From Isoetes taiwanensis (taxonomy: Eukaryota > Streptophyta > Lycopodiopsida > Isoetales > Isoetaceae): a DNA stretch of 64,000 nucleotides. The stretch covers positions 307,640 through 371,639 of the forward strand of contig JAJEKV010000196.1 of the NCBI GenBank assembly GCA_021234155.1, read 5' to 3'. Below are positions 15,100-58,937 of this stretch, in pieces. Both the position numbers and the translations under genes were made by a program. The notes beneath the pieces were generated by a model. It searched no databases. It was not told where the DNA came from and saw only the letters and a list, made by a program, of their open reading frames with translations. Numbering within the stretch: the stretch's first letter is position 1; the number at the start of each line of letters is the position of its first letter.

Positions 15100-15121
15100 C
15101 TTTAAAAAGCTTCAAACACCC

Positions 15122-15730
15122 GTGACAATTAAAGAAGTCAAGGGATTTATGGGAATGACCTCTTTCTTAAGAGTGTATGTGCCTAATTTCTCTCACCTTA
15201 TTAGTCCTATCTCTAAGTTGACTAGAGTAGGCCAAGTTAGTAAAAGAGAAAGTAAATATAGGCCTGTTGTTTGGACTGATGAGTGTGAAAAAGCTTTTTT
15301 GCAGATCATAGAGGCTATTTGCCATTCTACACTTTTAAAAACTCCAGACCTTTCATTACCATTTAAAGTTTACATAACTATCACTAAAAAGGTCTTTGGA
15401 GTTGCCATTTTGCAAGATAGACACCCTATTGCTTTTGCAAGCAAACAATGGTCTCAAACTGAAGAGAAGTATGCTAAGATAGAAAGGAGTGCTGCTTCTC
15501 TCATCTTTTTGATCGAGAGACATGGTCATCTTTTACAAAAATCCCAAGCCACTATCTACATGCAGCAGAACCCCATGCCTTTTTTGTATGGTAAGAAATT
15601 AGAAAAACCTAAGCTTCATAGGTGGGCTTGTAGGCTTCAGTCTTATGATTTAAAGGTAAAGGTTATTCATGTATTGAACAACCCGAGTTTATACTTGCCT
15701 GCTGCCTACTTTGAACATGAGGAGTTGATA
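15122..15730 (+). pseudogene. Native RNase H, catalytic residues lost
   Basis: After the RT connection block (KGFMGMTSFLRVYVPNFS) comes an RNase H fold domain. The usual D of the YxDAS block is replaced (FKVYITITKKV). The usual D of the TDHKPL block is replaced (TIYMQQNPMPFL), and the usual ADALSR end reads LYLPAAY. The Glu-bearing block (KIERSAASLIF) persists. The frame itself is open (15122-16324), so the losses are substitutions, as expected of a domain kept as a spacer after the extra RNase H took over. Confidence 0.7.
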
Positions 15731-15769
15731 CAAGAAGAAGAAATGACTAACCTTGTTGTAAATGAGCAG

Positions 15770-17675: not shown

Positions 17676-18633
17676 TGTTGCCCATTTTTGGCAACATGGA
17701 CCAGCATCTATGTTTCAAAACCTTTGTTCCATTTACATTTCCTTTAAGGAAAAGTTCCAGGCTATTGTGATCCCATCAGAGTTTGGAAGACATTTGACCA
17801 AGATTGGAAGACATTGGGGATCTCCTATTATGGCCTAGTCTTTTCCTTGAGGTAAAACACCTTTCTAGACACATTCCTATTAGCTTAACATTTTCCTTTG
17901 ATTTGAAGACCAGGCAAAGGCTATAGCAAGTTTATCAAGGAGGCACAAGACATTTTACCAAAGCTCAAAACCTTATGAAGCTTGCTTGAGAAGTTTGAAG
18001 TCACACACATGAGGATGCTACCCTAGAAGTGAAATTTGCTCTTATTCTAGCCTTGAAGTTTGGAAGACCCTTATAGAAGTTTGGAAGACCTTAGGCTTTG
18101 AGCAAATCTATCTTCACTAGGAGGTATGAATTGAGCCCTAGAAACAATTTGAGATAAGATCAAGTGCTACAGAGGTACCCATCTCTTCTTCATTCCATTC
18201 ATCTTACATCCCCTTTCTATATCCCAAGAGCCTTCAAGACTTTTCCTTCACCATTGTTTCCACTTTTTGAGACCTTTTCTCATCATTCTACTACTTATCT
18301 TTTATGAATCCCACCTTCATTTGAGAATTGTCCCCTAGTGATCTTGAAAACCTTCAAAGGCAAGAAGGCTTCTTTCTCATTCTCATTTCATCTTCCTAAA
18401 CCCTAGTATAGCCTATTACACCCTTTTCCCATCTTTTTTCCTATGACTTTTTTTCACCATCCTTATGTTCCAACATTCATTGACCATGGGTCAAAAGGGA
18501 CCAAAAATTCAAATGTTTTAGTTTGACCTAAAAACCCTCTAGATGGGAAAGTTGGAAAAAAAGAGCTGACTTGGTCTTTTAAAATTCAAAAAACCTTTGG
18601 GAAAGACCTTCAAAATTGATTCTTGGGATGCGT

Positions 18634-18667
<34 letters not shown>

Positions 18668-20165
18668 ATTCTAGCCTATCTACCCTATCTATTTCTCAAG
18701 ATAGTTCCGTGTCACCTTCCCCCTTTTTTTCCACGTGGCGGCAGGGTGGGGGCGGTGACACGGCTGGCCAGGTCCCCTCTGCGTGGCACGCAAATTTAAT
18801 AGTGGGTCTGCATTTTTCCTTATATACCTTAGCCTCCGAACCACTTCGGCCTGTGGGATATATCACCCTTAAGAATTTTCGATGAACCCTAAGAAATAGG
18901 GGAACATGCTAAATCCGCCAATTTGCACCTAAACTTGATTGAATCCCGCCATTTTTCCCCAAATTAGCTCCTAAACCTTTTCCCAAACCATGGGGATCCT
19001 TTGTGGCATTTGATTCGATGGAAATTGCTAAATTTGGGCCTCAAATCACTCAACCGAAGCTAGCTTTTGGGAAGAAACGGTTCTTAAACCAGCATCACAG
19101 ACCAAATCGACACGCCCTCGAGACATACCTGCGTGGATTTTGGCGCATTGAATTTTTGATATCCTTTTGCTCTGCTCCGCCTCGGATTCCAGCTCCATTT
19201 CGTTCGAGATTGAAGTCCCCGCTCGTTAGTGACTTGTTCAAGATCAAGCACCTCGATTGGCAAACTTAAATAATCACTCCATATTACTTCATTGGTATTT
19301 TTGAAGCTCGAAAGGCTCAAGCAGTCTTGAATTTTCTCTCAAGCATTATTATTTTCAAAACTTTGGTAATACCCCTGTTGACATTGTCATACCTTCAGTA
19401 TCACATTGCTATAATGCATAGTCTTTGCCCCGAAAAATCATTGTCTTCATTGTACATCCTTTTTTTTTGTAGTTCACGCATTGCCCTTTTAAAAGAAAAA
19501 AAAAAGAGCAAAAAAAAAAAAAAAAAAAAGACCAAAAATATTTACTCGAGATTATATCTTCTTCGTGTAGTTGTATCTCATCCTTATAGAAATCCTAGAC
19601 ACCTATACATTCGGAGAAAACATATAAAAAGATTTCTTTTCATAACTATTTATGAGTTTGTTCTTTTCTTGAGGTTTTGTTTACTTACGTAAAAAACTAA
19701 AACATCCTTTTGCTATTCAAACCTTTTGCACGTGATCTAGAGGTTATTTTGAAGTTGCCTGCACAGATCCCAACCCAAAATTCCCCATCAAACTCCATCT
19801 GCAAAATTTGGCTCTCTGTTTTGGCACTGGCCAACTTTTTGACCTGCCTTTGACCTCGATTTTCTTGACCTTCCTTTATTCAAATCAAGTCAAGTCTTCT
19901 CCACCATTTTCCTCTGCTTGTTGACCACTGATAACACCAATCAGACCTTCAAAATCTCTCAAGGTGCGTCTGCAAGTTCAGTTTTTGCTCTGACAGTTTT
20001 TTCAGTTTCAGGGACTCTAGTGATTTTGAAAAAACTAGCACTTAAAAAATGAATTTTTTGGTTTCATATGACAAGGATTGATCACCCTAAGTGGTCTGGA
20101 GGTTCTAACCACTTTGTTTAAGATTCCTTTGAGGTTAGGCTAAAATTCCAGGTTTTAGGCTAACA
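17676..20165 (+). repeat. 3' LTR (2490 bp)
   Basis: Direct repeat of 9189-11674, TGTTGCCC...GGCTAACA, followed by the GGGCC target duplication. The TATA-like box is at 18820-18826. Differences from the 5' copy are mostly one- or two-base changes in CAG/CTG/CG contexts and homopolymer lengths. Confidence 0.93.
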
Positions 20166-24116: not shown

Positions 24117-24491
24117 TTAGAAACCAAAAGCCACAATCCTTATATTAGAAAACCTAAAGCCCACCGAAGGTGGGCACTTTTCTAGTATTGGTTTTAATTT
24201 TGGGTGCCTTGTGAGTACTTGCAGCACATCTTCCACATTGGAGAGTTGCATTGATGACCATATACCAACACAACACTTCTGTAACAAAGTCTTCAAGAAG
24301 AACACTGCTTTTGGTCTGAATATCACTTTCTTTCTGCTAGTGTATGTCATTGTCAATCCTGCTTCCAAGCGTATGTGTTCATTTGCACCAAATGTTTTTA
24401 CCAACACGCCATTTAAATCCAAGACAATGAGTTTATCTTTGGCTGGCAAATCAATATTTAGTACGTTGGAACATCCTGAATACCAACACAA
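24117..24491 (-). pseudogene. FCP1/NIF-like HAD phosphatase exon fragment
   Basis: The minus frame reads KLIVLDLNGVLV, the first HAD motif of plant NLI-interacting-factor (FCP1-homology) phosphatases. Later come FRPKAVFFLKTLL and VGIWSSMQLSNVEDVL, which match the FRP..FL and GIWSS blocks of that family. An acceptor-like GGTATTCAG precedes it, so it looks like one exon. The second Asp of the DxD motif is Asn, as in some plant members. The rest of the phosphatase, including the WDQ-type block, is missing nearby, so this is a captured or decayed fragment. Confidence 0.6.
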
Positions 24492-41031: not shown

Positions 41032-43066
41032 GAGTCAACCTGAACTGCTCCAGATTGCATGAAGTTTTGTGATCAGCGGGTTTATTTGCCTGAAAGGTAT
41101 TGTAATACACATGGAGAGCAACAAAAGCTTGAAAATGAAGGTAATACATCACCAGCGGAGTAGGAAATGCATTATCAGATGCAATCCTCAGATTATGAGC
41201 CGGTAGTAGAGATTTTGAATGTTGAAGAAATCAACAGTGAGCTGCGTGATAATGAGACTGTAAATATCGAGAATAGAAATGAAATGGTAGAAACCATGAT
41301 CTAAAATCTGATAGACACATGACTGCTTATAGTGATGATAGATCAGTAAGGTGGTTGTACAGGAGGGCCGTAACTCTCTAGCAGCAGTAAGATGTCTGAT
41401 GCCTTAGACAATGTGAATTTATTGATATTGTGGTGGTGTTTTTATAGGTTCCATGATCTTCCACTGCCTCGTGGATCTCATATATGGTTTGAAGATTCTG
41501 AAGAAAGTACTGAAGAAGAGAGAGAGACGGGCATGAGGAGGATGCTACACTAGTGACAAGCCAGTTGGGCCTTAAAACCATCCAGCAAGATTTGGATCTA
41601 GGCTATGATTGCTTCTGAGAGTGAAAACCAGGAGATTTAGGAATCCTTTAGTATTTCATCAAATACACGAGAGGCAATAAGATGGGAAAAAGGGGTTTAC
41701 CCATGCAAGATCCAGTTACAAGTTACAAGTTACAGTATACACTGGACAGATATAATAAATGGATCAGTATCTCGAAAATCTAACTTTAATCCCCAATCTT
41801 ATAGCAAGCAGGTGATCGAGGCATGGTCATTGGTGGGCAAAAAACTCCGGTAAAGTTGAACAATTCAAGATATTCTTTGTGCATTATAATCTGATTGACT
41901 ATGATGAAAGATCCAGTGATCCTATCCTCTGGAGTGACAGAATTTAACATGCCCTATCATAAGGCATAAAACGAGGCATTCTAAATCATGCATCGCACAA
42001 AATGATCGGGGGCAGAAAGAACAAAACATAGATGGACCCCAATCTTCTGTGGGATATTGGGCTTTGATTTTCAAAAAGAAATGAAAGATCTGCTTGCTTA
42101 TAGGCAGTTTGTCACCATTTTTTGTTTTCCATGCCATAGAAGATTGAGACCAAGGTGAATGCATCTTTTTCTTTGGAGTAAGTATTATTTCGGCTTGCTT
42201 AAACAGGATCAAAGAAAGAGGCAAGCCCTTATGCATAATGGAACAGTATTTCGAATTTTAGATATGGTTCCAGAGGCGTCTATTGATGCAGGACTGTCTC
42301 TGTTTCAAAATTCCTTGTGTACATGCTTTTCTGCTCGCATTTCAGCTGATGTGCATCCTGTTATAGACACTAGCTTCCCTATATTGGTTGAGAACAAGAC
42401 CACTCATTCTGCAATTGCACAAGATAGATGACAGTTCTGACTATGCTGAGTTTCTCCATTTATGTAGGAAGAGGTTCACATATATTTGTGAGTTATTTAT
42501 CCTTAACACCCTGCTTTTCTCCATTCTTGCCGGTTTTGCTGTTTTGGTCTCTTTACTTGGAATCCAAGCTTGGTGCCCTTTCCAAATTCCTTGAACCTTG
42601 CATTGTTTGCATGATTTAACACTTTCATTTCCCTTTCCCAATTAATATTGCACAGTAGAGAGCAACGTGTTGTTGCAATTCTGGCATTGAAAGGTGTAAA
42701 CTTAGCAGGTCCTCCCCATTTCCTAGCCACAGTCTATCTCATACATCATTTAATGCTTTGCTGGCATGTGGCAGTGCCCCCTTTTTTTGGCTTATGTTCT
42801 TTGTGGTCCAAACATTTCTAATCGTGATAGCGGCTGTTTTACATAGGTTTGGAGCTTGCTCCGCCCTAAGATGGTCGGAGTGCAATGTTTTTGTCGAAGG
42901 GTTTGTGTTAACGACTTTTTCCCCTCAGATGTCTTAAAGTCTCTGCAAACCTTATTGCTAGTTGGATTAGAACAACTGCTTCAATCTTGGCTAGATCTGT
43001 TGCAATACCTTCCGCTTTGAAATTATATGGCGGAGGTAGTCTACCTTTGGTGTAGCAAAATGACAC
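41032..43066. other. Non-coding or unassigned; one coding-like stretch
   Basis: At about 41075-41290 the plus strand reads an acidic, coding-looking stretch (VYLPERYCNTHGEQQKLENE ... VVEILNVEEINSELRDN) with one stop. A similar stretch (LPLPRGSHIWFEDSEESTEE) lies near 41460-41530. Neither matches a family I know. The rest shows nothing. Confidence 0.35.
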
Positions 43067-44301
43067 TTACTCGACCGCATACAATTGGTGTCGTCTCAAC
43101 TTCTGCAAGGCCTTCTTTAGATGCTCCACGTGCTCTTCCAAAGTCTTGCTATAGATCAAGATGGCATCAAAGAAAATGATAACAAATTCATCTAGGAACT
43201 CACAAAAAATATCGTTCATGAGTCTCATAAAGGTTGCGGGAGCATTAGATAAACCAAAGGGCATAACTGTGAACTCATAATGCCAATATCTGGTTCTGAA
43301 GGCTGTCTTGTGAACATCTTCTTCCTTGATCCTTGAAGCTGATCCATGAGGTCGTCTGCTCTAGGTAAGGCGTACTTATTCTTTATGGTATGCTTATTCA
43401 ACTGTCGATAACCAATGCACATCCGCATACTACCATCTTTCTTCTTGACAAATAAAATAGGTGCCCCAAAAGGAGACACACTTGGCCTTATAAACCCTAG
43501 ATCTAAGAGCTCTTTCAACTGTTTCTTGAGCTCTACCAACTCCTCACCAGTCATCCGGTAAGGTGCCTTGCTGCTAGGCTTGGTCCCTGTTTCGAGTGCT
43601 ATTTCACACTCTACTCCTCTGTATGGCAGAAGCTTCTCGATCTCGTCTGGAAAGACGTCGTGAAACTCCTTAATTAAGTCCACTACAGACTCAGGCAACC
43701 TTGCAAATAATGATTCCTTCTCGCCTTCCTCTTCAGGTTCGTCTATTGCTTGGAGCTTAAACACATATGTTATTTGTTGCCTCTTAATGCTTTTCAACAA
43801 TTTCTCAATAGACATACATCGATTACTTTCCTTGTCGTGAGGATTACTTTCCTTGCCGCTGTCGATGAAAGCTTTCTTAGGGATAAGATATTCCATCCCG
43901 ACTATGAGGTCGTACTTTCCCATATCCATGATCTCTGCTCCCATACTTACTTCAACCCCCGGCAACTCAATGTTGAAGTTCACTCTTCTCCCTTCGGTAT
44001 ATCTGACTTTCCCATTAGCCAATACAACTGGCCTAGGGTTTAACCGAAGGGTCTGAAGCTTAAGCAACTCTACTATGCGTGGCGAGGCAAAATTATGGGA
44101 TGGCCCCGTATAAAAAAGAACTACGAATGGCTTAGCCTTAATTTTTCCCACTGTGGAAATGATATTATACTGACTCTCTGCCTTCTCAGAATCTATAGCA
44201 GCTAGAATGTGACAATTACCTTGGATATAATCCTGCGCCTCCTCGTCATCATCCCTCTGAGGGGTTTCCCAACCTTCGAGCTCCATAAAGCATTTGCGCA
44301 T
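43067..44301 (-). pseudogene. Protease and partial reverse transcriptase, active sites damaged
   Basis: A 358-codon frame (44301-43225) begins with the protease, whose active-site block reads [12 protein letters not shown]: Tyr replaces the catalytic Asp of D(S/T/C)G. The RT fingers follow ([20 protein letters not shown], with Gly for Asp in IDYR). A frameshift near 43260 leads to [12 protein letters not shown] and [12 protein letters not shown], where the FFDD catalytic pair reads FFDA. The element stops soon after KLRRHQLY. It is dead by substitution and truncation. Confidence 0.85.
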
Positions 44302-44464
44302 TCATCACATGAGGGCAATTATGTGTCTTATGGCCTGGTTGAAAACACCTGAAGTATAAGTTCTTATCGATACATTCCTGTTTCTTCTCTCTCGGCATAA
44401 CTGTTAGAAAATTCTTTACTGCCTCAGAGTAGCCTGCTTTTTGTTGCCCACCTTGACGATGCGG

Positions 44465-45415
44465 CTAGAACTGGGGCCTATCCTTGAAGGTCACCTGCTT
44501 CCTTTCCTGCCTCGGATAGGGAGGAGTATAGGGTGTCCTTGCCGGCGCTGGACTACCCGGCCTTGGGCTATACGCTCCAGGAGATCTGTTCCTGTCAAAA
44601 TAGTTCTGCTTTGGCCCAGTGCCTTGCAGGCTTACTGCTTTGGCTTCTTCTTCTGAGACTGAAGTTGGGCAAATTGCCTTCACCAAGCGTCAAATCTCTT
44701 CATTTAGGCCCTCTATGTAGCCATCCACTGCATCCTTCTCACTGAGCCTGGGAACATACATGCGAAGGCGCATAAACTCTTCCATGTACCTCTGTACTGA
44801 CATGTTCCCTTGTTGCAACCTGTGAAACTTCTGCATCATGTTGGTCTTATGCTCTCTCGGAACATACTGCTTCTTGAAGGCTTTCTTGAACTTGCTGAAC
44901 CTAACGGACCGTTTGCTCAACCCATTGCTCTTTGCATAGCTGGTCCACCAAACCTTAGCAACCCCTTTGAGGTTTGTGATTGCTACTTTTCCTTTGTCCT
45001 TCTCGTTCAGGTTATAATTCTTTGCATAATCCTGCATCTCCTCAAGCCAAGCCTCGGCTTCTAGCCCTGACCTGCTTTCTCCTGAAAACATCTCCAACTT
45101 TTGTGCCTTCCAAATGTTCCTCATGGCGGAGTCTAACTTCTTTTGGTAGTTGGCATCGGCCCTATCATTGCCTGGCCTATTGTTTCCGGCCCTGTCATTC
45201 TGAGCTCTTACATTTCTTTCTGGCTCGCTACTATCCTGCTTTGTCTCTGACTCAGTGCCAAAGGAGCCTGAACTGCTATCTGAGGATGAGTGATATCTCC
45301 TGTGCCTCTTCCTACCTCTATGTTCCCGGTCTCGGTTCCGCTCTCGGCCCCTCTGAGGTGTGACGTTCCTCTCCTTGGGGTATCTCGGGTTGTGGGGGCG
45401 ATCTGATGACATCAT
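44465..45415 (-). pseudogene. gag: gag of the truncated chromovirus-like element
   Basis: The N-terminal ~80 residues are Arg/Ser/Asp-rich. Then comes the Retrotrans_gag domain (KLEMFSGESRSGLEAEAWLE, VWWTSYAKS, FKKAFKKQYVP, EFMRLRMYVP). A frameshift at about 44690 leads to a Pro/Arg-rich C-terminal frame (44686-44465). A CCHC knuckle follows near 44330-44360, where the first Cys position is Tyr (YFRCFQPGHKTHNC). This loss would weaken RNA binding. Confidence 0.8.
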
Positions 45416-45499
45416 ATAAATGGGTAGGAGTGACTATCCATAAACGTCCGGACGGTTTTGCCCCAGTGGTTAAGGGGATATGATTTAGGATCGTCTCAG

Positions 45500-45511
45500 T
45501 GGTATCAGAGC
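45500..45511 (+). promoter_or_regulatory. Primer binding site, tRNA-iMet type
   Basis: TGGTATCAGAGC, the standard plant site complementary to initiator tRNA-Met. The following ~250 bp (CATGGCACTTACCATGGCCA, GTAGAGTAGGAATTTGC, GACCCGAGTCAACGC) match, in reverse orientation, the leader next to the primer site at 56931-56942. This confirms it is a genuine retroelement leader. Confidence 0.85.
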
Positions 45512-46454
45512 AATGATCTCGTAAATCCCGGATCATGGCACTTACCATGGCCAATTAGTACTAATGAGGATTAGTTATAGTTGACCTAGAATTTTATTAG
45601 TATTTGGTATGCTACTAACTTCTTGTAGAGTAGGAATTTGCTAAATTGGAGTGCACCATCGAATTCCCGGGACCCAAATTAGCCAAGGTGGACCCGAGTC
45701 AACGCATGAAAAAGTCAATGCACCCCAAGTCAACGATGGGTGCGCGAATGGGCTTTCGTAATTTTAAAATTAAAAAATAAAAATCCAGATGCCCAGAAGC
45801 GCAACCCGTAGAAAATATTTTCCGTCCGTTTTTTTTATACGTATAAAATAAAAAAAAAAAAACTTTTTAAATACATTCTTTTTATATGTTATTTCCGGGT
45901 TGTTTATCTTTCATCCGCTCAAGTTTTTCGCCACCATCGCCAACTCGGAGATGCTCTTGCGCCATCGCCATATCTCAAAACCGAGCTACATCGCCGGACT
46001 TCATCGCTAAACCGCCATAGCATAGCGCCTTGATTTGTCTAGCCGCTTTGCCCTAGCGCCTACATCCATGGCGAACTAGAAACCGTTTCTCTTTCTACCC
46101 GGACCGTCAATGAGCTACTTCTCTTCCTCGTGATGGGTCTTACGGAACCAGTTGCTGAGCAAGACCCTTACCTTGAGGAGTCCGCCGGTTCTTCCTAGAT
46201 GAGCCAATCCCTTTTCCCCTTTTCCATTACTCTGCTCTCTTTTTGCTTAGACTCAACGCCAGAGGGGCCAACTATACCTTACAAGATCGTCCCGACCTGA
46301 CTCAAGTCATTGTCCGGTACATGCCCCATTCAGATATCCTGCTCACACCAGAGGAATTGAATGCCCTGAATCGACGGGAAAGCGGGGCGGGGGTATCGCC
46401 ATAGCGAAGCCCATGACATTGCGAAGCGGGCGAGCAGACGAAGCGACGCGTAGC

Positions 46455-46537
46455 GGGGCTTCTACTACTTAGGTGATGGGAAGTGCCTCTTCCAGCAGGA
46501 TTTAGTCACTATTCCCCGTTACACTTTTCTCGCTCCT
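46455..46537 (+). other. Open upstream extension of the histone-like ORF
   Basis: The H3-like frame is open from just after a TAG at about 46454, reading [20 protein letters not shown] before the first ATG at 46538. Protein-like sequence in another frame (LNARGANYTLQDRPDLTQVI) precedes it from about 46250, right after an intron-like TTTTTGCTTAG end. The true N-terminus may therefore lie upstream, reached by splicing or lost to a frameshift near 46380. Confidence 0.45.
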
Positions 46538-47236
46538 ATGAACCAGTTCATATGGGATCCGAGCGTGAACGAGGGCTTGGAGCCCCTTCTGCTTGCCATT
46601 GGACGGGACATGCTTGCTCACCCTGACAGGTACCACGCTGAGCTTCGCCGCCGTGCACATGATCCTCCGGTGATTCCTGACCGCGTTCCCCAAGCACCTG
46701 TTGATCCTGATCCAGTAGTACCTGATCCAGCGGTAACGTCTACGTCTTCCCCAAGAGTCTCCAACTGCAGACGGAAGCAAACTAACGTCAAGAGACAGAG
46801 GAGGACAAATATCGCCGACCGCCTGCAAGATTTGGGGCAACGAACAGGTGAAGAGTCGCGTAAGTTTCGGGAAGACTTGGCCTATTCACGTCGTGTGCCT
46901 CCAGTATATCCTGCCAAAACAATCCGGAAGAATAGGAAGCCGCATCGCTATAGGCCGGGTACGGTAGCATTGCGGGAGATTCGGAAATATCAGAAGTCGA
47001 CAGAGCTTTTGATCCGCAAGTTACCTTTCCAGCGACGTGTGCGGGAGATAGCACAGGAATTTAAGACCGATCTTCGGTTCCAGTTGCTCGGGGTTCTAGC
47101 TTTACAGGAGGCCGCCGAGGCATACCTAGTCTCGATGTTCGAGGATGCGAACCTGTGCGCTATCCACGCCAAGCGCGTCACCATTATGCCGAAGGATCTT
47201 CATCTTGCTCGCAGGATTCGCGGCGAGACGCGTTGA
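46538..47236 (+). CDS. Histone H3.3-like fold fused to a unique N-terminal region
   Basis: An unbroken 232-codon ORF. Residues 134-232 align without a gap to canonical H3 residues 37-135, from [20 protein letters not shown] through [14 protein letters not shown] to RRIRGETR. Tyr at H3 position 41 and Leu at 90 are the plant H3.3 states; loop 1 has canonical length, so it is not a CENH3. Changes include L70R, D77E, SSA(86-88) to LLG, G102S, L103M, T107A and Q125H. The H3 tail (K4, K9, K27 region) is absent. Instead there are 133 residues: a helical N-terminal part ([20 protein letters not shown]), a Pro/Val/Asp repeat and a basic stretch ([12 protein letters not shown]) that could be a nuclear signal. 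It lies between primer site and gag of a chromovirus. I infer capture from a host H3.3 mRNA, since there are no introns. Confidence 0.88.
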
Positions 47237-47497: not shown

Positions 47498-48922
47498 ATG
47501 GCCTTTTCAGCACCTCTTACCTTTGATGACCGCCTTAGATGGTATGCAGCTGGAGAGCATTGGGATCCCCAGATTCCATATCCTCTCTTGGATCATCAGT
47601 TGTTGTTCTCCATTGACCTCATTGCCAATATGCAGGCTCATTCTGCCTGCGCAGAGTGGTTAGAGTTTTACTTGCACGATATTGTTCCCCTTTGTGTTAC
47701 CATGGGAGAACCTCCAGCACTTTACCTAAGCCACAATCATCGGTGGAGATCTTTGGGTGGAGATCGAGCAACCGAGCAAACTCACAGTATGGCATTATTG
47801 GCCCGTGCCATTCAGCCGCCTACCCTTGCTTTTGGGGACAACCTTCATTTTGAGGCCACTTTTGCTCTTGCCATCCTTATGGACCGGTTTGTTCCAGACG
47901 AACCGCTTCTTCCGGGACAAGGGTCACACGAGGATGACGATGAAGACGATGAGGAAGTCGACCTCACTGATTTCCAGCATTTGCACCAGCTAGCACACGA
48001 AATACCTGAACGAAGTCGGCATCACCTCCGTTTTGGTAGTTTGGAGGCCTTGCCCGTTGTTTGGGTCAATGGTAAGGATTATTTACTTTTTGAGGATATC
48101 CTCGCCATCTATCATGCTTGTGGTATCAAAAAAGGGGGTCATACTCACCTCAAGGTTGAGATTCTTTATCAATTGGCAGAATACTGTATGGATCCTTTTA
48201 TTGACTACACGGATCCTCAGTTACCACCACCAGTCCAGCATGCCTTAAGTTAGCATGCTGAGGGTTTTGATCCCGCTCGCACTCTTTTAGAATTGCGGGA
48301 TTATTTCCTGGAAAATGCACCTCCGGAACCTGATGCTTCTGAGTTTGCCAGCCGCGGACCTCATGTTCGTCCAATGCATCTGGTGGAGGTAGTTGATGTC
48401 CCAGATGATACTGAAGAATCCCTCACAGAGATTTCGCAACAAGAGCGAAGAGAAATCAAGGAAGAAGAGGACGAAGATGCTCTTCCTATGGATCTCGAGA
48501 AGGAAATTCAGCACTTTCGGCCCGATCCTGCGATCTTCGCTTGGGGTAATGCACTTACCCGTTTCTTTCTCTCGACTTTCGACAAGACCAGGTCTTGTTT
48601 TGTGCCCAAAGGTTATCCAAGGAAGCTGAGGCCCGCGTGGTGGGCATTGCGGGCTTTATCGATTCTGGCGGGCCATTTCGAATTTGGCAGCGGCGGGCGG
48701 CCGTCGTTACGGTACATTTTTGCCCGTCATACGGCATTAGGCGCCTTGTGCCGAGGATCGCCGGGCCCCTTATCTATGAGGGTGCTCACGCGGCGCACCG
48801 TTGGCCACTTTTGTCCTCGAGGACTTCACCACCGGCGGGTTTTGCTGCTCATCCGGCCCGGTTGCCTTGCCGCTATCGCCCTCCGGTGGATGCTCCTCCC
48901 AATTCATCGAGGCGGGACCTAG
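47498..48922 (+). pseudogene. Acidic accessory ORF of unknown function
   Basis: Start chosen at ATCATGGCC, a good plant start context; the frame is also open from 47474. It reads 251 codons to an in-frame TAG (48251-48253) and continues in the same frame to 48922; after about 48600 a neighbouring frame (to 48942, Pro/Arg-rich, ending at TAA) looks more protein-like, suggesting a frameshift. Features: an acidic patch (EDDDEDDEEVDL) near residue 150, a second (EEEDEDALPMDLEKE) later, no membrane segment. The NGKDYLLFEDILAIYHACGI block and the PPPVQHALS...TLLELRDYF block resemble the upstream region of the histone-like ORF ([31 protein letters not shown]), hinting at a shared module. No known family was recognised. 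Confidence 0.55.
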
Positions 48923-49156: not shown

Positions 49157-50377
49157 GCCATCCAGATGAACGCTTGTTTCGGCAACAACTTGCCGATATA
49201 CACGCCTACGTGCTTCAACAACCACGGGCGTCGGAAGGCATGCCAAATATTGGACCTTTGGACAGATATCAGCCTCCTAGCCAGGGGGAGAACGTGGTCC
49301 AGCCACCGCCATCACCACGTGCTAGCAATGTCAGTCACCGTGGGCATCATCGCCATCAGGACCGCCGACATGATGGGGATCACAGCAGACACCACCGTCA
49401 GCACCGTCATCACGATGGTAACCAGGATCAGTACAATCCAGATGGTCGTCGGCTTAGGCATGCTGATGCGGGTGGAGATGGAGATGGTGATGGGTCCGAC
49501 GATGAAAGGCGTCACCGACATGGAAGGGACCATAGACGGCCTCACAGGGATGGTCGTCGTGACAGAAGACGATGTGGTCAAGTTCCAGTTCAGATTCTTC
49601 CGACTCAAATGTTTCCACAGATTTGGAATCTGATGCTACTCGTGCAGGCCACGGGGACTATCGAGGAAGAATGTGAATCTTTGCCATGGCCAATGCGGAA
49701 GAAACGAAAAAACTTTCACAGTTCACAGGAGACGGCCGCACAGGAATCCAAGCCGAAGCATGGTTGGATGAGATGCGAGAGTTTGGCCAGTTCCACAGGA
49801 TGACGGATGCAGATATGGGTAGGGTCGCAACGGCTAATCTAACCTTTGCTTGCTTTCGTGATCGGTGGAAGGGGAAGCTTCGGCGCTCTCGAGTCTCTAG
49901 GACAAAGTGTCCATTTAAGAGGTTTGGCAAGGCATTTAAGCATCACTTTGTTCCTCGTGCCAAAGAGATGCCGGCGATTCGAGGCTCTACGAGGTTCGAC
50001 AAAAGAACATGTCGGTACAGGAGTACACTAATGAGTTTATGCGGCTGCGTCTGTATGAGCCCAAAATGACAGAGCGCCGTGCAGTGGAAGGCTATGTGGA
50101 GGGGTTATCAGATAACTTGCGTAGCATGGTTCGTGCTTTGGGCCCCAGAACTGTTGCGGATGCCGAGGAGAAGGCTTTGAGCTTGGCGGAAGGGCCGGGA
50201 CAATCATCCCGGGGTAAAGCTCCTGATTACACTCCCACCACCAGTAAGCCTTATGTTCCCTATCGGCAAAGGTCTCCAGGGCCGAATTATGCACAGCAAG
50301 CTCCGCCAGCTCCAGAAAAGCGGGTCACTTTTAATGCACCTCCTAGGGTGCCATTGGATCATTTGCTTTCGGGCTGA
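49157..50377 (+). pseudogene. gag: gag of the accessory-ORF chromovirus
   Basis: After the acceptor the frame reads HPDERLFRQQLADIHAYVLQ, then a long His/Arg/Asp-rich region (49310-49570). A shift near 49650 leads to the Retrotrans_gag domain (KLSQFTGDGRTGIQAEAWLD, 49686-). A further shift near 50000 leads to EFMRLRLYEPKMTERRAVEG and a Pro-rich tail to 50377. Gag builds the particle. It is closely related to the gag at 44.5-45.4 kb. The lack of a gag ATG at the start of the homology supports translation beginning in the LTR exon. Confidence 0.8.
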
Positions 50378-50386
50378 GCGGAACGG

Positions 50387-51149
50387 ATGAGGAATTTGAT
50401 ACAGACAGTCACTTCCGAAGATAGAGCCCGGGGTTGTGAGAACAACTCCTGTTTCCGTTGTTTTCAACCAGGCCACAGGATGCAGGAATGTCCACGGCTC
50501 ACGGCTATGGCACAAGCGGCGCTTGTTCGAATGGATTTTGATAATTACGCCGACTTTGCTGATATTCCTCAATACGAGCCCGAAGATTATATACAAGGTC
50601 AGTGTAAAATTTTTGCTGCTATTGGCCCGACCAAGCGAGAAAGTCAACTGCGATTATTTTCACTTTGTTGGCACCATAGATTCCAAGCCCTTTGTTGTTT
50701 TGTTGGATTGTGGTAGTACCCACAATTTTGTCTCTCCACGAGTTTCCAATATTTTACAGTTTAGGGTCCTGCATTCTAAACTGCGACCTGTGATGTTGGC
50801 AAGTGGTGCTATCCGTTATACAAGGGGACAGCGTCTGAATTTGGATGTTCAGTTGCCCAATGCATCCACTTCTTTTGGTGCCGAAGTCATGGATATTGGT
50901 GGTTATGACTTGATCATTGGCATGGAATTCTTGACTCTAGCAAATGCTATCATTGACTGTGCAAAACACACGGTGACGTTTGATACAGCTGAAGGCAAAC
51001 GCGTCACTATTGCAGGTAAGCCGCTTACGCCTGTCATGCAATGTATTTCTATGAGGCAATTATGCAAGGCATTTAAAAAGAACCAGGTTGCTTATTTGGT
51101 TAAGCTTAATGCTATTGCTGCCCCATCCAAGCATGCCTCAACCTATTAG
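50387..51149 (+). pseudogene. Zinc knuckle and aspartic protease
   Basis: A complete CCHC knuckle (CFRCFQPGHRMQEC, near 50452-50493) is in one frame. After a frameshift near 50660 the protease follows, with active-site block FVVLLDCGSTHNFVSP near 50690 (DCG in place of the commoner DSG/DTG) and the family's second block GGYDLIIGMEFL near 50902. The catalytic Asp is kept, unlike the related element at 44 kb. Confidence 0.8.
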
Positions 51150-52497
51150 GGACTTGTTGCATGAGTTTCAGGATTTGTTTCCTGACAACATACATCAGTT
51201 GCCACCATTCCGTGGAGTGGAATGCGAGATCACCTTGGAGCCGCACACTCAACCTCCAAGTAAGGCACCTTACAGATTATCTTCCCCGGAGTTAGCGGAG
51301 TTAAAGAAGCAGTTGCAAGAACTTCTTGACTTGGGATTTATTTGACCGAGTGTCTCACCTTTTGGGGCACCGATTCTTTTTGTCAAGAAGAAGGATGGTT
51401 CTATGAGGATGTGTATTGATTATCGCCAGCTTAATAAGCATACCATCAAGAACCGTTACGCTCTGCCTCGTCCTGATGACCTCATGGATCAGTTGCAAGG
51501 TGCTAAGTATTTTTCAAAGATTGATTTGCGATCGGGATATCATCAGATTCACATTAAAGAAGACGACATCCATAAGTCGGCTTTCAGAACACGGTATGGC
51601 CATTATGAGTTCACAGTTATGCCTTTTGGTCTTACTAATGCTCCCGCGGTTTTCATGCGGTTGATGAATGATGTGTTCCGTCAGTATTTGGATGATTTCA
51701 TCGTTATCTTCTTTGATGATATTCTAATCTACAGTAAGACTCTTGAAGAGCATACTCATCACCTGCGGTTAGCTCTTCAGAAGCTTCGGAGACATCAGCT
51801 CTTTGCTAAGTTCTCCAAATGTAAGTTTGCAGCCACGGAAGTGGAGTATCTTGGTCATATTGTCTCTGCTGAGGTCATTTCTACAGATCCCTCTAAGATT
51901 GAAGCTGTTCAGGGATGGCCTGCTCCTCAGAATGTCTCGGAAGTCAGAAGCTTCTTAGGCTTGGCAGGTTATTATCGCAAATTTGTAAAGGGGTTTGCTG
52001 AGTTAGTTGCACCTTTGACAAATTTGACCAAGAACCAACTGGTTCGGGATTGGGCTTTGCATTGGAGAGAGAATGTTCAATCCTGTTTTCAGAAATTGAA
52101 GGATGCTTTGATTTCTGCGCCAGTCCTTACACTTCCAGATCCGGAACTCGATAAGTTGGTTGCCACAGATGCTAGCGATGTTGCTACAGGTGGAGTTCTT
52201 ATGCAGGAAAGTCGGGTGATTGCTTATGATTCCAAGAAGTTAAATCCTGCACATCAGAACTACCCCACACATGACAAGGAGCTTTTGGCTATTGTCCATG
52301 CCTTGCGTATCTGGCGCCATTACTTATTGGGTCGGCCATTTCAACTGGATACTGATCATCAGAGTCTCCAGTATATCTTCACTCAGCCCAACTTGAATTT
52401 GCGGCAGCGGAGATGGATGGAGTTCCTTGAAGAGTATGAATTTCAGATAGTCTATAAGCCTGGTAAGCACAATGTCTATAAGCCTGGTAAGCACACT
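51150..52497 (+). pseudogene. Reverse transcriptase and RNase H
   Basis: The connecting and finger region (51088-51345) is followed by an in-frame TGA at 51345 where the related element codes Arg ([12 protein letters not shown]): a single CGA to TGA change. From 51403 a 360-codon open frame carries [35 protein letters not shown], the catalytic FFDD (near 51711) and the RNase H blocks [13 protein letters not shown] and DTDHQSL, i.e. three of the four RNase H acidic residues. The frame ends at YKPGKHN, just before the last block, at a 24-bp tandem duplication and the nested insertion. Confidence 0.9.
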
Positions 52498-52498
52498 G
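52451..52498 (+). repeat. 24-bp tandem duplication at an insertion/deletion junction
   Basis: TCTATAAGCCTGGTAAGCAC plus four bases occurs twice in a row (52451-52474, 52475-52498). It marks the exact edge where the chromovirus stops and the truncated LTR of the nested element begins. Such short filler duplications are typical of end-joining repair. Confidence 0.8.
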
Positions 52499-53181
52499 AA
52501 CCTTCATCAAAGAGGAACAGCCCGGGAGGGCTCTTATGCACAGGCTGCATAGGGATCTACAGGGATCTATCTAGGCTAGAACCTACTCCTAATAAGCTTT
52601 CAGGCCTCTACCCATCCCTTACCCCATTAACTAAGGAAAGGTGCAACAGCAATACCAACAGAATAGAACAGAGAACATCATCATCATCATAGAATAGAAT
52701 AGCGAAATACTCCATAAAACGAATACAAGGGTCAGTGTAAAGACAAAGAATCATGACAAACTAACCGGAACATCCACTGGATGCATGGAGACTAGATCAG
52801 AGGATGGAGAAGAGCTCGAATCTGCTGATCCAGGTGATGGCAAGCGCCAGAGTTCTCGAACCCTTGGCTGGGTGCTGGGTGCTGGCGCCAGAGCTCTGCT
52901 GCCCAAGTCGAAATTGGGGCAAAAAGGCAGATCTAGGATCTGGTCCCTTTTATGCATGCTCCTGGCCCTTCGATTGGGCCACGTGTCACCACCTTAATTA
53001 ATTAAGTGTCACCACATTAATTAATTAAGTGTAACAAACCTAACATGTTAGTACAATGTTAATGTTAACATATCAAGTTAGACTAACATGTTAACATAAC
53101 AAGTACCTCTTGGGCCGTAGGTCGGTGACGTGTCACGTATGATACAGTATTTATACCCGTATACTTACGGGGAACGTCACA
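52498..53181 (-). repeat. Truncated 3' LTR of the nested element
   Basis: Matches 57789-58474 closely (GAACCTTCATCAAAGAGGAAC through TACTTACGGGGAACGTC). About 845 bp of the LTR's distal part is missing at the 52498 junction. Confidence 0.85.
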
Positions 53182-53194
53182 TTCTCCCCCCCTT

Positions 53195-56100
53195 AAAAAA
53201 AATAATGTTGTCCTCAGCATTAGGAAGGGTCTACCACTGTTAGGGGGTCAAGAGCCGTATAACCACACAAAGTGATTGTAACAAGGGATAAAGAAATTAA
53301 ATTAAGATTATGAATGCCAACCCAAAGGTGAGGCGAAGAAAAAGACACGCTTACGCACAACCACCAAGAGTGCTTAACTCAAAGGTCAAGATAAGGTAAA
53401 AAAAAATTGGGTAACGAGAAGGCCAATTATAGACATAGGAATTAAGCACAGGGATAGAAAAAGTATATACAGAACGGAAGCATGAGAGAACTAACTGTAA
53501 TTACTTAATAAGGTCTAGACCCGTTAGTATCGATAACATATTACATGTTACCATAAGGGAAAATTGTTGGCATATTGAAAAGGCGAAACATATTGGAAGA
53601 AGTCCAATATGAGTTGTGGATATGACTCAATAAAGTGAGGGAAATAAAACAATTCCCAGATTCTGAAAAGAATAGGATGGTGAAATCATTAGCTGCACAA
53701 AAGTATCATCGTCAAAGTGATCAATTTTGAAAATGACGTTCGTGTGCAGGGAGATTTTAAATTACACAAAAAAATACCATGTTCAAAATGAGCAGTTTTG
53801 AAAATGATATTCATGTACAATTCATAAGTGCTATTTTGATTTTGATATTACTACACCTAGCGTAAAACACTGAATTTATACAGGAGTGTATAAGACAAGA
53901 TGTAGATGAGTGGTTGGTACTATGTATGTTATAACGTAACATACCTATGATACAATTAACTTGATATACATTTCTAAAGGATGAGGGTTGAATGGAATAT
54001 TTAATATCCCAATCATGGACAGAGTTTGAGAGAAACAATGGGAATGTAATCTTATTATAGATACATGCCGAGACAAGGAGTAAAAACAAAGGGGCGATGT
54101 ATGATGACGGGTCCGAAGAAAGTAGTGACCCGGGAAGATGGGTAACAATGTTGGTCAATTGTATGCCCAACATACGTGGTAAGCAAGAAGGCATGGTTGG
54201 CATGCGATCTCCTATTTAGATCGAACAATTTCCTAAAGAAGACAGGGTAACATGATTATGGTGCTATTGTTCAGAATGAGATGCCAACAATATCACCTGA
54301 GGATTCCTAGAATAGGCAATTACATTTTCTATTAAGCCTTGGAAGGATTAAGAATCTCAAGAGATTCCGAATATTGAGGGAAATTTTAGTTTCCCTACAG
54401 GACAGAGGTTGATTATGAATGGTGACATCACAGTAAGAGCTGACACGGGTAGACGCTACTAGGTGATAACCTTCCATTCACATGGATTGTATGATAGAAG
54501 AAGAAATTTTAAGATTTATTAAACACAACATGTTATATACACAAGATGTGCGTAATATATCTATCGGTTTCTTCAGAAGACTGTCAGGGTGGCTGCATGA
54601 TTGAGGTAACAAGAATCATAAATTCTTGTACTACGAGCAATTAAAGGTTAGCGAAACTTCGAAGATAAGGATCATGTCATGTCCATACCTAGACATGCCG
54701 ACGGAGATAGGGGTTGCCTAGAGAGTCGTGTCTAAGATAATACATTATAGTTACACGGCCGCGTGTAACCCATAAAAGATAAGGTAGAGACTACACTCAA
54801 GTCTGGATAGGAGTCAAGACGAAAGGTATCGGTTCGAATAGATAACAAATAACTTATCTCAAGTATTTGGTTTGGGCTCTATTCAAGGGTTCCGATAATG
54901 GCAGAAAGAAGAGATTAAGGACGACTCTTATAATTATACCCTGAGGTATAATCCCAAAGAGATGAGGTCATACTAGATTGAAGTGCCAGAATAACATTCC
55001 CTAGGGAACCATAGGGTAGATGTCAGAATGGATGGCGATCACACGTTATATAACGTGCAAAAAAAAAAAAAAAGGACATATAGAAGGGACCAAGTAAGAA
55101 TTAGGGTCCGCATTACAAGAGAAATAACAGGCCCATAACAAAATTCAAGGCGCATTACTTTAGAAAAGATGGCAAGAGCGAGGCCGCAATTGGTTCTGAG
55201 GGATTGGTTACGAAATCCCAATAAGGATTTAGAATGACGGCTATGAAAATGCGAGCAGATGTTGGCTACAACATCGAGTTGATACCAAGAGGGCAGGATA
55301 ACCATTAACGAATGCATCCAAAAAGAATGTCGTATGGTAGGTGACGGGTAGAATGACTCAGGGTCAAAGTGCCAACTCCAAGAGATAATAATAGACTTTC
55401 CTCAAGGTTACAAAAGGGCAAGGAAAGAGAATGAAGGGATCTCATAAAACTAGGTGGAAGTGGACCGAAAAAGCGGATTCACGACATACCGAAGGAAGGA
55501 GAATCCCAGACAAGAGAGACGACCAATATCGAACAAGAAGTTCGATGACAGAAACTTGGGTGTTCTATTGGAGCATACCTCATTGTTGACGAAGCGAAGC
55601 CAGCATACCTCGTTAATAATGAAGCAAGGCCAAGACAAAGGGCTTATCACGTTGTAATTCTTAAGGACAATATAGAATTTAGTCAGTGGGTTATCCACAT
55701 CATTTACAGGTTGTGGTAGACTGGCAGAAAGTATACCCCATGTACCATAGGGAATACCCACTAGGTATGGTAACTGACCGAGCCATCGAGAGCACGGCAA
55801 CGGTACCAGAAAGACACGACAGTGGCTATAGGTTGGTTCATCGAAAAACCAACGCTTGGTCAGCGGTGGTGTAAAATTCACGGTGGTTCTTCCACAGTAA
55901 TCCAGGAGTGGCAGACATGACAAAGTACTGGTAAAATACCAAGTACAGACTGGAGAGACGTGTAGTTGACATTTGTAACAAATGACAACAACAGCTAACG
56001 TAAAGTGACTTCCTAAAAAGTCAATTGCATGAACACTGCTGGGTCACGAGGATAGTATAACCATGGTAAATAACCTGGTTAATAAGACTGGAGACTTGCA

Positions 56101-56930
56101 CGTAGAAGTGTTCATGTGAAGACATAGTTCACCAGAGAGATGTGGTCCCTGACAAGATGTAAGGTTGGAACAAGATAATACCCCTAGGTAATCAAAGAAA
56201 CGACACATTCTCTCCCCCTTGACAGGAATGATATAGACAAGGACTACTAAAGCAGATTTAGCCCATCCTTAGAAGGGTTATTCTATACGCGAGAAGTAGG
56301 TGACTATGGGAAAGCGAGCTTTCAAGCTCGGTGGTTATCCTTGCACTGAGTGCTGATGGAAAGATCCCTTCTTCACGGTATAAGGAGTTGACGAGGAATA
56401 GAGGAGGACACTCACCTAGGTAAACGAAGCTATGGGTACGTCGGCTATGGCAGGCGAAGCTCAAGGTATGCCGGCTATGGACGCCACAAGCCGCTGCTGC
56501 ATTACCTGAAGTTCGGCACTCCAACAACTTGGGTCTGATTAAGAACAACAAGAGACATTCAATTGGAAAATAAATCCGGGGTTAGACTTAAAAGAAACAA
56601 GCGGACAGAAAAAAAAATTTAATTTTTTTTTTTTTTTTTATTCAGAGTTGGGGATTTCGATTTTTATTTTTTTATTTTAAAATTCGGATTCCCCATCTGC
56701 GAATAACTTTGACTTTAACCCAGCTGACTTTGTCCAGCGTTGACTCGGGTCTCCCTTAGCTAAATCAGGTACTGGGAACTCGATGGTGACCTCCAATTTG
56801 GCAAATTCCTACTCTACAAGGGGTTAGTAGCATACAAGACACTAAGAAAACTCTAGGTCAATTCTAACTAACGGAAATTAGTACTACTTGGCCATGGTAA
56901 GTGCCATGATCTTGGTCTACCAAGATCATC
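53195..56930 (-). other. Non-coding interior of the nested element
   Basis: No recognised protein domain. The longest frame (157 codons, minus, 55450-55923) has no known motif. A second purine-tract-like block, the reverse of ACACATTCTCTCCCCCTTGA at about 56203, resembles the LTR/purine-tract junction at 53178-53193 and could mark an internal LTR relic. Confidence 0.55.
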
Positions 56931-56942
56931 GCTCTGATACCA
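56931..56942 (-). promoter_or_regulatory. Primer binding site of the nested element
   Basis: GCTCTGATACCA on the plus strand, i.e. TGGTATCAGAGC on the element strand (tRNA-iMet type), one base from the LTR end. Confidence 0.85.
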
Positions 56943-56943
56943 C

Positions 56944-58474
56944 TGTGATGCTCCCTGACGATATACGATGCTCCCATCGTATAAGCCCAGAAAATCCCCC
57001 TTCCCAATGCACTCAATGCACCATTGAGTCACTGAGTCGGGCCCTCCATATACCCTGGAACACTCGTGATGGGCGAGCTTCCAAGGGAAGGGCACGGAGG
57101 TGTCTTGGCCTTCCATCCCTTCATAGGAACCTATACAGCGGAAGCAAACACGTTAGCACATACCAATAAGCCAATAAATAATATGCCACCTCCAGGGGTG
57201 GCCCCTCCATCAATACACAACATAACATAGAATATGCAACTATGATGCAAGGCCTTACCCCCGGCTCAGTATCAAGGGAAGATGACTGTCGGTCAAGGCT
57301 CAAAAAACAGCAAGAAGAAGAAGAACAATGGCAAATGGCTGGCACAAGAAGTATAGACCACAGGTATCCACTCCATCCGCCCCTCCTGTGCATACTTTGC
57401 AGAATGGATTGTTCCAACTTCTGATCAGACTCTAGGTCTTCTCGGAAACGCAAACCTCAGGGAATCACCCTCTGAGATCTACTCCGGGGTTCATAATCCC
57501 TCCGACCAAAGACCATGAACTAGAAGTGTTCCAGAGAATGGGGTATCCATGTGCCACAGAAAGATCGTCACCCGGATCACCGGCATCCGACCATACCCGA
57601 CTGAACCCATCTCTCCGCATAGCCAGAGCTAGGGCGTTAGACCTTATACCCAGGGCTCCCTGAGTCTCTAAGTATTAGGCTTAGCAGCTGAAATAGGGAA
57701 CAAGCCAAGATCACTTGGCGAGGCCCCGTACCACTTCTCCCCACCTCCTTCTCGTGAATCCATGGGGTGCAATGACACCACATGGACGAACCTTCATCAA
57801 AGAGGAACATCCCGGGAGGGCTCTTATGCACAGGCCGCATAGGGATCTACAGGGATCTATCTAGGCTAGAACCTACTCCTAATAAGCTTTCAGGCCTCTA
57901 CCCATCCCTTACTCCATTAACTAAGGAAAGGTGCAACAGCAATACCAACAGAATAGAACAGAGAACATCATCATCATCATAGAATAGAATAGCGAAGTAC
58001 TCCATAAAACAAATACAAGGGTCAGCGTAAAGACAAAGAATCATGACAAACTAACCGGAACATCCACTGGATGCATGGAGACCAGATCAGAGGATGGAGA
58101 AGAGCTCGAATCTGCTGATCCAGGTGATGGCAAGCGCCAGAGTTCTCGAACCCTTGGTCATTTGGTCTTTGGGGCGAGCTCTGCTGCCCAAGTCGAAATT
58201 GGGGCAAAAAGGCAGATCTAGGATCTGGTCCCTTTTATGCATGCTCCTGGCCCTTCGATTGGGCCACGTGTCACCACCTTAATTAATTAAGTGTCACCAC
58301 ATTAATTAATTAAGTGTAACAAACCTAACATGTTAGTTAGTACAATGTTAATGTTAACATATCAAGTTAGACTAACATGTTAACATAACAAAAGTACCTC
58401 TTGGGCGTGGGTCGGTGGCGTGTCACGCGTATGATCACGGTATTTATACCCCGTATACTTACGGGGAACGTCCA
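56944..58474 (-). repeat. 5' LTR of the nested element (~1531 bp)
   Basis: On the element strand it begins TG(T)GACGTTCCCCGTAAG, with one base apparently missing at the very end, and finishes CGTCAGGGAGCATCACA. It has a TATAAATA box 30-40 bp inside the left end and a second GCATAAAAGGG further on. Near 58053-58073 the element strand reads ATGCATCCAGTGGATGTTCC, then G and GTTAGT: a short ATG exon with a donor, the same design as in the chromovirus LTR. The 3' half matches the LTR pieces at 59.4-62.3 kb. Confidence 0.8.
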
Positions 58475-58937
58475 CGGTCAACGAGATCTTGCGACATGCG
58501 GGCTTTGGTTGAAGAAATGCGTGCTTACTTATTGGTCGCTCGTAGTCGGTGAAGACTATTGAGATAAGCACCGTACGGATCGTCAATTTCAGGTTGGCGA
58601 AACAGTTTGGCTTAAGATTAAGGTCAAGCAAGCTAAGTTGCGCATTGGCAATTGTAAGAAGTTGGCACCCAGATGGGCGGGTCCCTTTAAGATTAAGGAG
58701 CGTTTGGGATCCCAGGCCTATAAGTTGGAATTGCCATCTCGACTTAAGATACATGATGTTTTCCATGTTAGCTTGTTAAAGCAGCACACTCCGAATCCTC
58801 ATGAGGTTATAGATACTCAAGTCCTGTTGGAGATGACTGAGGAACAGTTGGAAATTGTGCCAGAGGCTTTATTAGAAAAGTCTCTTAAGAAGACTCGTCG
58901 TACTCAACTTACCCAATTTTTGGTTAAGTGGACTTAA
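58475..58937 (+). pseudogene. Integrase C-terminus with chromodomain
   Basis: The first ~80 bp read DMRALVEEMRAYLLVARSR, the helix after the integrase core. After a frameshift, QFQVGETVWLKIK, APRWAGPFKI (GPF/Y motif), LPSRLKIHDVFHVSLLKQH follow, and then a C-terminal LEKSLKKTRRTQLTQFLVKW, which has the form of a chromovirus chromodomain, a module that targets integration to marked chromatin. The zinc domain and DDE core are absent, lost together with the nested insertion. Confidence 0.85.

Follow-up and report, generated by a model that had tools for sequence, protein, structure and literature searches.

Results

A histone H3 core lies ahead of gag in a chromovirus of Isoetes taiwanensis

We analysed a 64,000-nt stretch of the Isoetes taiwanensis genome (contig JAJEKV010000196.1, positions 307,640-371,639, forward strand; hereafter, the window), which holds a damaged long terminal repeat (LTR) retrotransposon with an open reading frame (ORF), here called ORF-A, that ends in the core of histone H3 (Table 1). 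An earlier reading of the letters alone (the sequence-only reading) had pointed to an ATG-started frame of 232 codons whose last 99 residues match H3 without a gap, situated between a primer site of the tRNA-iMet (initiator methionine) type with a retroelement leader and a chromovirus gag. Both the match and the arrangement were borne out, the latter by the homology of leader and gag. The C-terminal 99 residues (KPHRY...GETR) align to H3 37-135 with zero gaps; the Pfam core histone model PF00125 matches the frame with E 3e-40 (137.6 bits, cut-off 26.4), and its best match in the PDB is histone H3.3 (7ux9_E, E 4e-52). The longest stop-free run at this place, 260 codons, was equalled, though never exceeded, among 300 shuffles (maximum 260, mean 116), so that the length of the frame by itself is weak proof and it is the H3 match that proves the case. 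Compared with a hand-entered plant H3.3 reference, 13 of 100 residues from position 36 onward are changed, one of them being E77, the state found in all 15 host-type H3 genes that we fetched.

The 232-codon frame reads as the 3′ half of ORF-A and not as a complete gene. Gag and pol are broken, as the sequence-only reading had said; its further suggestion, that an open frame beside broken ones could be a sign of selection on the protein, does not hold for this copy, since the N-terminal domain of ORF-A is itself partly out of frame, the 5′ LTR was not recognised and the integrase core was not found. The window copy is decayed, and the evidence for selection therefore comes from the family instead. 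By eye, ORF-B of the window has one in-frame TAG and loses its frame close to the 3′ end. The window gag gave a weak Pfam match to Ty3_capsid, under the cut-off.

Table 1. Features of the H3-bearing element in the window
Feature	Position	Strand	Basis
Primer binding site of tRNA-iMet type, TGGTATCAGAGC, after LTR-end-like GGATCGTCTCAG	45500..45511	+	sequence; same arrangement in copies L033, L035, L087
Retroelement leader	45488..45795	+	78% identical, inverted, to 56954-56649 (post-primer leader of the nested LTR element)
ORF-A N-terminal domain remnant, not in the H3 frame	46180..46359	+	tblastn: L018, L083, L054, L049, L085
Remnant of ORF-A N-terminal domain, in H3 frame	46460..46654	+	tblastn, about 37% identity to L018
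232-codon open stretch of ORF-A	46538..47236	+	ORF list of the window
Histone H3 core, H3 residues 37-135	46937..47233	+	Pfam PF00125, PDB H3
ORF-B, conserved orphan ORF	47498..48676	+	tblastn with L016 ORF-B: 47537-48676, 38% identity, E 1e-64
Chromovirus gag region, ends approximate, frames broken	49157..50377	+	homology to minus-strand gag 44690-45415 and to L032
Protease, reverse transcriptase, RNase H, broken	50436..52497	+	Pfam RVP_2, RVT_1, RT_RNaseH
Nested LTR element within pol, with its LTR pieces at 52498-53178 and 57788-58472	52498..58472	-	95% direct repeat
Pol resumes: integrase C-terminal region; chromodomain start by eye	58474..58935	+	58487-58868 72% identical to L034:2955-3337

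Three observations concern the damage to this copy. A GC-rich stretch of about 90 bases (46380-46470) lies where the ORF-A frame breaks. A related minus-strand chromovirus fragment (gag, protease and reverse transcriptase (RT); 43021-45415), its gag starting 85 bases before the primer site, occupies the place where the 5′ LTR of the H3 element would be expected. The nested element in pol has no recognised coding frame and part of its 3′ LTR is gone; this part and the outer integrase core may have been lost together, as by one deletion.

The H3 core belongs to the mobile unit of a large family

The Pfam histone model, searched against the genome (1,658,258,908 bases, 1110 contigs), produced 8,705 first-look candidates, the best 150 of which were scored. 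Fifteen were full-length H3 frames, taken as host genes, and 135 were H3 cores with the tail altered or missing, in frames of 108-494 codons (at least 400 codons in 36 of the 135). When this list was pooled with the best 150 each for window ORF-A and for the ORF-A N-terminal domain, at least 363 distinct places on 133 contigs were obtained, 15 of them host-type; the number of related places is at least about 345, with three rows of the window ORF-A list perhaps host-like. An H4 control gave 69 first-look candidates, with 43 matches, 16 full length; the 8,756 first-look candidates for window ORF-A are only roughly comparable with these 69, as that query is longer. H3 is amplified in this genome and H4 is not.

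We read the anatomy of the element from pieces of five copies (C1019; two on C1018, of subfamilies b and c; C101; C907). The C1019 copy comprises, in this order, 5′ LTR, primer site, ORF-A, gag, protease, RT, RNase H, integrase, chromodomain and 3′ LTR, with its pol frame interrupted. Its LTRs (5′, 5367715-5369398, 1684 bp; 3′, 5377127-5378883, 1757 bp) are flanked on both sides by the target site duplication CAATC and differ at 63 of 1654 aligned sites (Kimura two-parameter distance, K2P, 0.039; 133 gap columns). The subfamily-c copy on C1018 has the same order plus two reading frames, ORF-B and ORF-C, between ORF-A and gag, LTRs of about 1585 bp (K2P 0.043) and the duplication GTGACC on both sides. 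LTR pieces of the subfamily-b copy on C1018, whose 3′ end falls outside the fetched stretch, have a K2P of 0.040; no exact match to the primer pattern was seen in that stretch. The C101 copy has the primer site and is a mosaic with nested LTRs; the fetched pieces of the C907 copy contained neither the primer pattern nor an LTR pair. The primer site recurs in L033, L035 and L087, and purine-rich AAAGAGGAGAAAA and AAGGAGGGGAGAA precede 3′ LTRs. LTR pairs of the form TG...CA, target duplications of 5-6 bp, primer site and purine-rich tract together mark an LTR retrotransposon. By its protease-RT-RNase H-integrase order and the chromodomain at the integrase C terminus we class the carrier as a chromovirus (Ty3/Gypsy); in Pfam, L034 gave RVP_2, RVT_1, RT_RNaseH, Integrase_H2C2 and Chromo over the cut-off and rve slightly under it.

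Since LTR pairs, primer site and target duplications enclose ORF-A in two copies, of subfamilies a and c, H3 is part of the mobile unit. Other copies with H3 between primer site and gag, which the sequence-only reading had proposed to look for, thus exist. The possibility it had raised against itself, a lone processed H3 retrogene, was rejected: in both copies that have target duplications, these flank the whole element and not H3 alone.

ORF-B comes next after ORF-A in 20 of 24 loci with enough sequence, gag follows directly in three and a non-LTR element lies between in one. In L026, L027 and L082, where gag stands directly after H3, ORF-B and ORF-C are absent and H3 is retained. The frame directly behind H3 in L020 resembles, by eye, a non-LTR retrotransposon RT. 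ORF-C was seen in three copies. T-rich sites ending in AG before ORF-C in two copies (L032:221, L088:1840), together with a TATAG ahead of gag in the window (49157) and in four copies (L026:2156 and L032:928 among them), suggest that spliced messages are likely.

Purifying selection on the H3 core is very strong

By the Nei-Gojobori method (NG86; L073, L076 and L077 excluded), the median ratio of nonsynonymous to synonymous substitution (dN/dS) of the H3 core was 0.033, 0.014 and 0.031 in the three subfamilies (845 of 903, 65 of 66 and 11 of 15 pairs usable). The corresponding value for host H3 was 0.012 (54 of 105 pairs). The N-terminal part of ORF-A gave 0.152 (123 of 210), 0.167 (15 of 15) and 0.137 (3 of 6), and ORF-B gave 0.124 (38 of 45). 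With a maximum likelihood codon model, dN/dS of H3 was 0.029 (6 copies) and 0.039 (12 copies), that of the N-terminal part of those same copies 0.228 and 0.198, that of H3 in 12 representatives from all subfamilies 0.033, and that of host H3 0.009. Between subfamilies the proportion of synonymous differences (pS) is saturated, with a nonsynonymous proportion (pN) of about 0.1 in the H3 core.

Because these samples had been ranked by H3 score, we drew a further one ranked by the N-terminal domain. All of its 15 best copies contain H3 sequence (11 uninterrupted, 4 broken), and the median H3 dN/dS of the 11 uninterrupted copies is 0.048 (55 pairs). Very strong purifying selection acts on the H3 core, nearly as strict as that on host H3, and the core behaves as one of the element's essential domains. 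The comparison across copies that the sequence-only reading had called for thus gave medians of 0.014-0.048, far below 1. These medians, the low pN at saturated pS and the presence of H3 in 15 of 15 copies chosen by another domain all speak against H3 being a passenger, that is, a fragment transduced by chance and now decaying, an explanation to which we give next to no credence.

ORF-A joins an orphan domain to a conserved core and a replaced tail

ORF-A, which reaches about 490 codons in the better-preserved copies, has at its N terminus an orphan domain of some 200 residues, followed by a Q/E-rich linker, a basic stretch containing tail-like motifs and, last, the H3 core. In 32 of 65 copies, 200 or more codons upstream of the core are open in its own frame, which then totals 301-494 codons; many of the other 33 are short stretches. 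The core-histone model was the sole Pfam model above its cut-off in ORF-A. Single-sequence AlphaFold models were too poor to use (predicted local distance difference test, pLDDT, 48 for ORF-A and 39 for window ORF-B). Residues 1-130 of the window protein had zero homologues among 178 candidates elsewhere and window ORF-B zero among 325; two scans of viral contigs (IMG/VR) gave no relative, and the best 120 of 7,981 matches to the full-length window protein were mostly ordinary H3s.

Conservation was scored in 65 copies, the window copy plus 64 more, some of them partial, with L077 omitted as a duplicate of the window. At 66 of 96 H3-core positions the host residue is kept in at least 97% of copies. 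These positions include R83, F84, R116, T118 and M120, which we take to be DNA contacts, and C110, H113, D123, L126 and R129, presumably of the H3-H3′ bundle. By sequence the core has the H3 fold with the alphaN region, gap-free to H3. Centromeric H3 (CENH3) has a longer loop 1 and a strongly divergent core; it was rejected as the identity of the element protein, which aligns gap-free to canonical H3 with a best host identity of 81-91%.

The much-changed core sites are 41, 57, 60, 64, 86, 87, 89, 101-105 and 124. T107A is found in 64 of 64 scored copies and I124L in 48 of 64, the window included. Residues 87-90 read FAIL in 39, HAIL in 13 and otherwise in 11 of 63 element copies, and SAVL in 11, TAVL in 3 and HAVL in 1 of the 15 host genes. 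This site is described as a chaperone recognition site, which reads TAIL or SAIL in three viral H3s, in the sections consulted of PMC9145170.

ARTKQ occurs in 0 of 63 copies with a readable tail, and the canonical tail ARTKQTARKS with K4, K9 and K27 is absent from these 63. TGGK is present in 32 of 43 subfamily-a copies and STGGK in 15 of 43. The element H3 has thus had its canonical tail replaced. Motifs of the ARKS type, where they occur, sit about 60 residues ahead of the H3 core and may either be left over from the H3 tail or have arisen later as mimics. A candidate H3 tail in the N-terminus of the window protein was rejected, as 387 of 2000 shuffles score equally high.

An altered chaperone site, and a long N-terminal domain that could hinder assembly, would suit a decoy that binds host H4 or H3 chaperones and disturbs chromatin assembly while staying outside nucleosomes. 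Such a protein would not need the presumed DNA-contact and H3-H3′ residues, which are kept in at least 97% of copies, and we hold a decoy to be improbable. The retained DNA-contact residues would also suit a histone-like packaging of element cDNA in the particle or pre-integration complex, and the place of ORF-A between 5′ LTR and gag puts it on the genomic RNA; host H4 would then need to enter the particle, H4 not being amplified, and this seems to us, if anything, slightly more improbable than a decoy.

A host H3 is the probable source

The sequence-only reading had a chromovirus capturing a host H3.3 messenger RNA. That a chromovirus carries the H3 is upheld; the H3.3 type and the route through mRNA are unproven, since all 15 host-type genes have Y41 and L90 and uninterrupted frames, so that neither the type (H3.3 or H3.1) nor an mRNA step can be read from them. 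Element copies and their nearest host H3 are 69-76% identical in DNA and 81-91% in protein (medians 72% and 86.5%, 63 copies), a difference that points to constraint and not to gene conversion; recent gene conversion with host H3 is ruled out by a DNA identity of just 69-76%.

The codon tree is compatible with all element H3s being grouped apart from the host genes and the window branching early among them. A second, later capture for the window subfamily may have taken place; the shared layout of ORF-A and ORF-B, T107A and the mostly present I124L favour one capture.

Two candidate relationships of ORF-B were rejected. Its C terminus looked H2A/H2B-like by eye, and a second histone was considered; the ORF-B profile had no PDB match at E 10, and when it was run on 4 real histones and 200 shuffled sequences the best rows were all shuffled sequences. 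Paralogy of ORF-B and the N-terminal part of ORF-A received an hhalign probability of 0.2%.

Discussion

A histone that may serve the element in nucleosomes

We consider it fairly probable, as one joint reading, that a chromovirus lineage captured a host H3 and joined it behind an element-specific N-terminal domain, and that this H3, which has a replaced tail and an altered chaperone site, forms nucleosomes together with host H4, the most likely benefit being escape from silencing. ORF-A is the first long ORF downstream of the primer site. The conserved core suggests that its H3 enters nucleosomes of the host type, and any partner would need to be host H4, since H4 was not amplified. Such nucleosomes would lack the K4, K9 and K27 sites of the canonical tail and, given the changed chaperone site, might be loaded outside the normal route; the element's own chromatin could thereby escape silencing. 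DDM1 is described as promoting the replacement of H3.3 by H3.1, and loss of HIRA, the H3.3 chaperone, as partly restoring DNA methylation in ddm1 (PMC10529913, in the parts consulted), so that an element could plausibly resist silencing by changing which H3 packages its DNA. Possible, though falling short of probable in our view, is that ORF-A takes the place of host H3 at target sites or in the element's chromatin, so that an element-specific domain in place of a modifiable tail marks self DNA and hinders H3K9/K27 silencing, in a state inherited with the element.

Several points weigh against this joint reading. Ranking by H3 score favours conserved copies, and the 15 copies ranked by the N-terminal domain are top matches, non-random and overlapping with the H3 lists. 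In the RT core, the window and two near-identical subfamily-a copies have a pN of 0.067 at a pS of 0.84-0.85, and the H3 core used for this comparison a pN of 0.113 at a pS of 0.82, so that H3 is constrained like the element's enzymes and not more; in a decayed subfamily-b copy the RT dN/dS is about 0.16. In the protein tree, which is unrooted, the window H3 neighbours the host clade (support 86/82). The N-terminal part of ORF-A had zero PDB matches at E 1, being an orphan domain of no known function or structure, and its compatibility with nucleosome assembly is an assumption. Finally, 2 of 6 subfamily-c copies (L054, L079) have ARKS, the context of K9 and K27, within the basic stretch, and 5 of 12 subfamily-b copies have ARKSG or PRKSG there; such motifs weaken the proposed anti-silencing benefit.

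The main rival is integration targeting, in which host nucleosomes containing ORF-A would be recognised by its N-terminal domain, by ORF-B or by the chromodomain, and new insertions would be steered in this way. The element has a chromodomain at the integrase C terminus, and an element-specific domain stands in the place of the H3 tail. On our own reading of its residues, the chromodomain keeps the middle aromatic and misses the first and third cage aromatics, which makes it group II-like; group II chromodomains are described as lacking these two aromatics, with little known of their activity (PMC3350952, in the parts consulted). The lack of ORF-B beside ORF-A in some copies counts against targeting, which we think rather unlikely.

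If ORF-A does enter nucleosomes, as the joint reading has it, the element would be a parasite that changes the basic unit of chromatin from inside. The family would also be a natural experiment on which parts of H3 the nucleosome requires, the core having long been under selection and the tail exchanged. H3 tails, chaperone choice and transposon silencing become directly testable questions, and the group II chromodomain, whose role is little known, gains a candidate partner in ORF-A. The evolutionary retention of the element H3 suggests that these elements may make part of their own chromatin.

Relation to known systems

Full-text searches of open-licence PubMed Central papers, on histones in retroelements and on histones in Isoetes and lycophytes, brought up no histone-carrying LTR element, judging by titles and the beginnings of abstracts. 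A survey section on 121 angiosperm genomes reports 15 non-canonical domains, with no histone among those named in its text (PMC9289625). The nearest functional analogues appear to be the single H3s of viruses, which on paper would work similarly. According to the consulted parts of PMC9145170, Manila clam xenomavirus, Dishui Lake phycodnavirus and metagenome-assembled genomes (MAGs) of nucleocytoplasmic large DNA viruses (NCLDV) carry, like the element, one host-like H3 and no other histones; in the histone fold these H3s share 73-87% identity with a host H3, some have N-terminal tails that are altered or longer, and several have changed chaperone-site residues in alpha2, again as in the element. 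The same text describes the bracovirus histone CvBV-H4, likewise a captured host histone with an extended tail, which enters host nucleosomes; unlike the element's histone it is an H4, and its carrier is a polydnavirus. The viral H3s come from DNA viruses and are few, whereas here the carrier is an LTR retrotransposon present in hundreds of copies, and its H3 is fused to an orphan domain and has a constraint that was measured; with a retrotransposon as carrier, the element falls outside the class of viral single H3s.

The plant LTR retrotransposons Retand and Bs1 have extra ORFs or pieces of host genes beside gag-pol, as does the element, and Ogre likewise has extra reading frames there. Such additional ORFs are described as commoner between pol and the 3′ LTR in the consulted parts of a review, from which the word 'histone' is absent (PMC7264820); those of the H3 element precede gag and one encodes a histone. 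Orchid Ty3/Gypsy elements with an AlkB N6-methyladenosine (m6A) demethylase resemble the element in having a host-type domain that became fixed within a Gypsy lineage as an extra ORF and is proposed to counter host control (PMC9289625), and differ in the domain itself. With chromoviruses of the group II chromodomain type, as assigned by our residue reading, the element shares the gag-protease-RT-RNase H-integrase-chromodomain order, the LTRs and the iMet-type primer site; it differs from them in having ORF-A, ORF-B and ORF-C upstream of gag.

Other features of the window

A direct repeat of 2.5 kb, 95% identical (9189-11674 and 17676-20165), encloses ORFs at 14518-17106; the first of these aligns at 39% to the RT of the H3 element, and the whole is another LTR element. 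On the minus strand, an ORF at 24117-24491 resembles, by eye only, an FCP1/HAD phosphatase (VLDLNGVLV).
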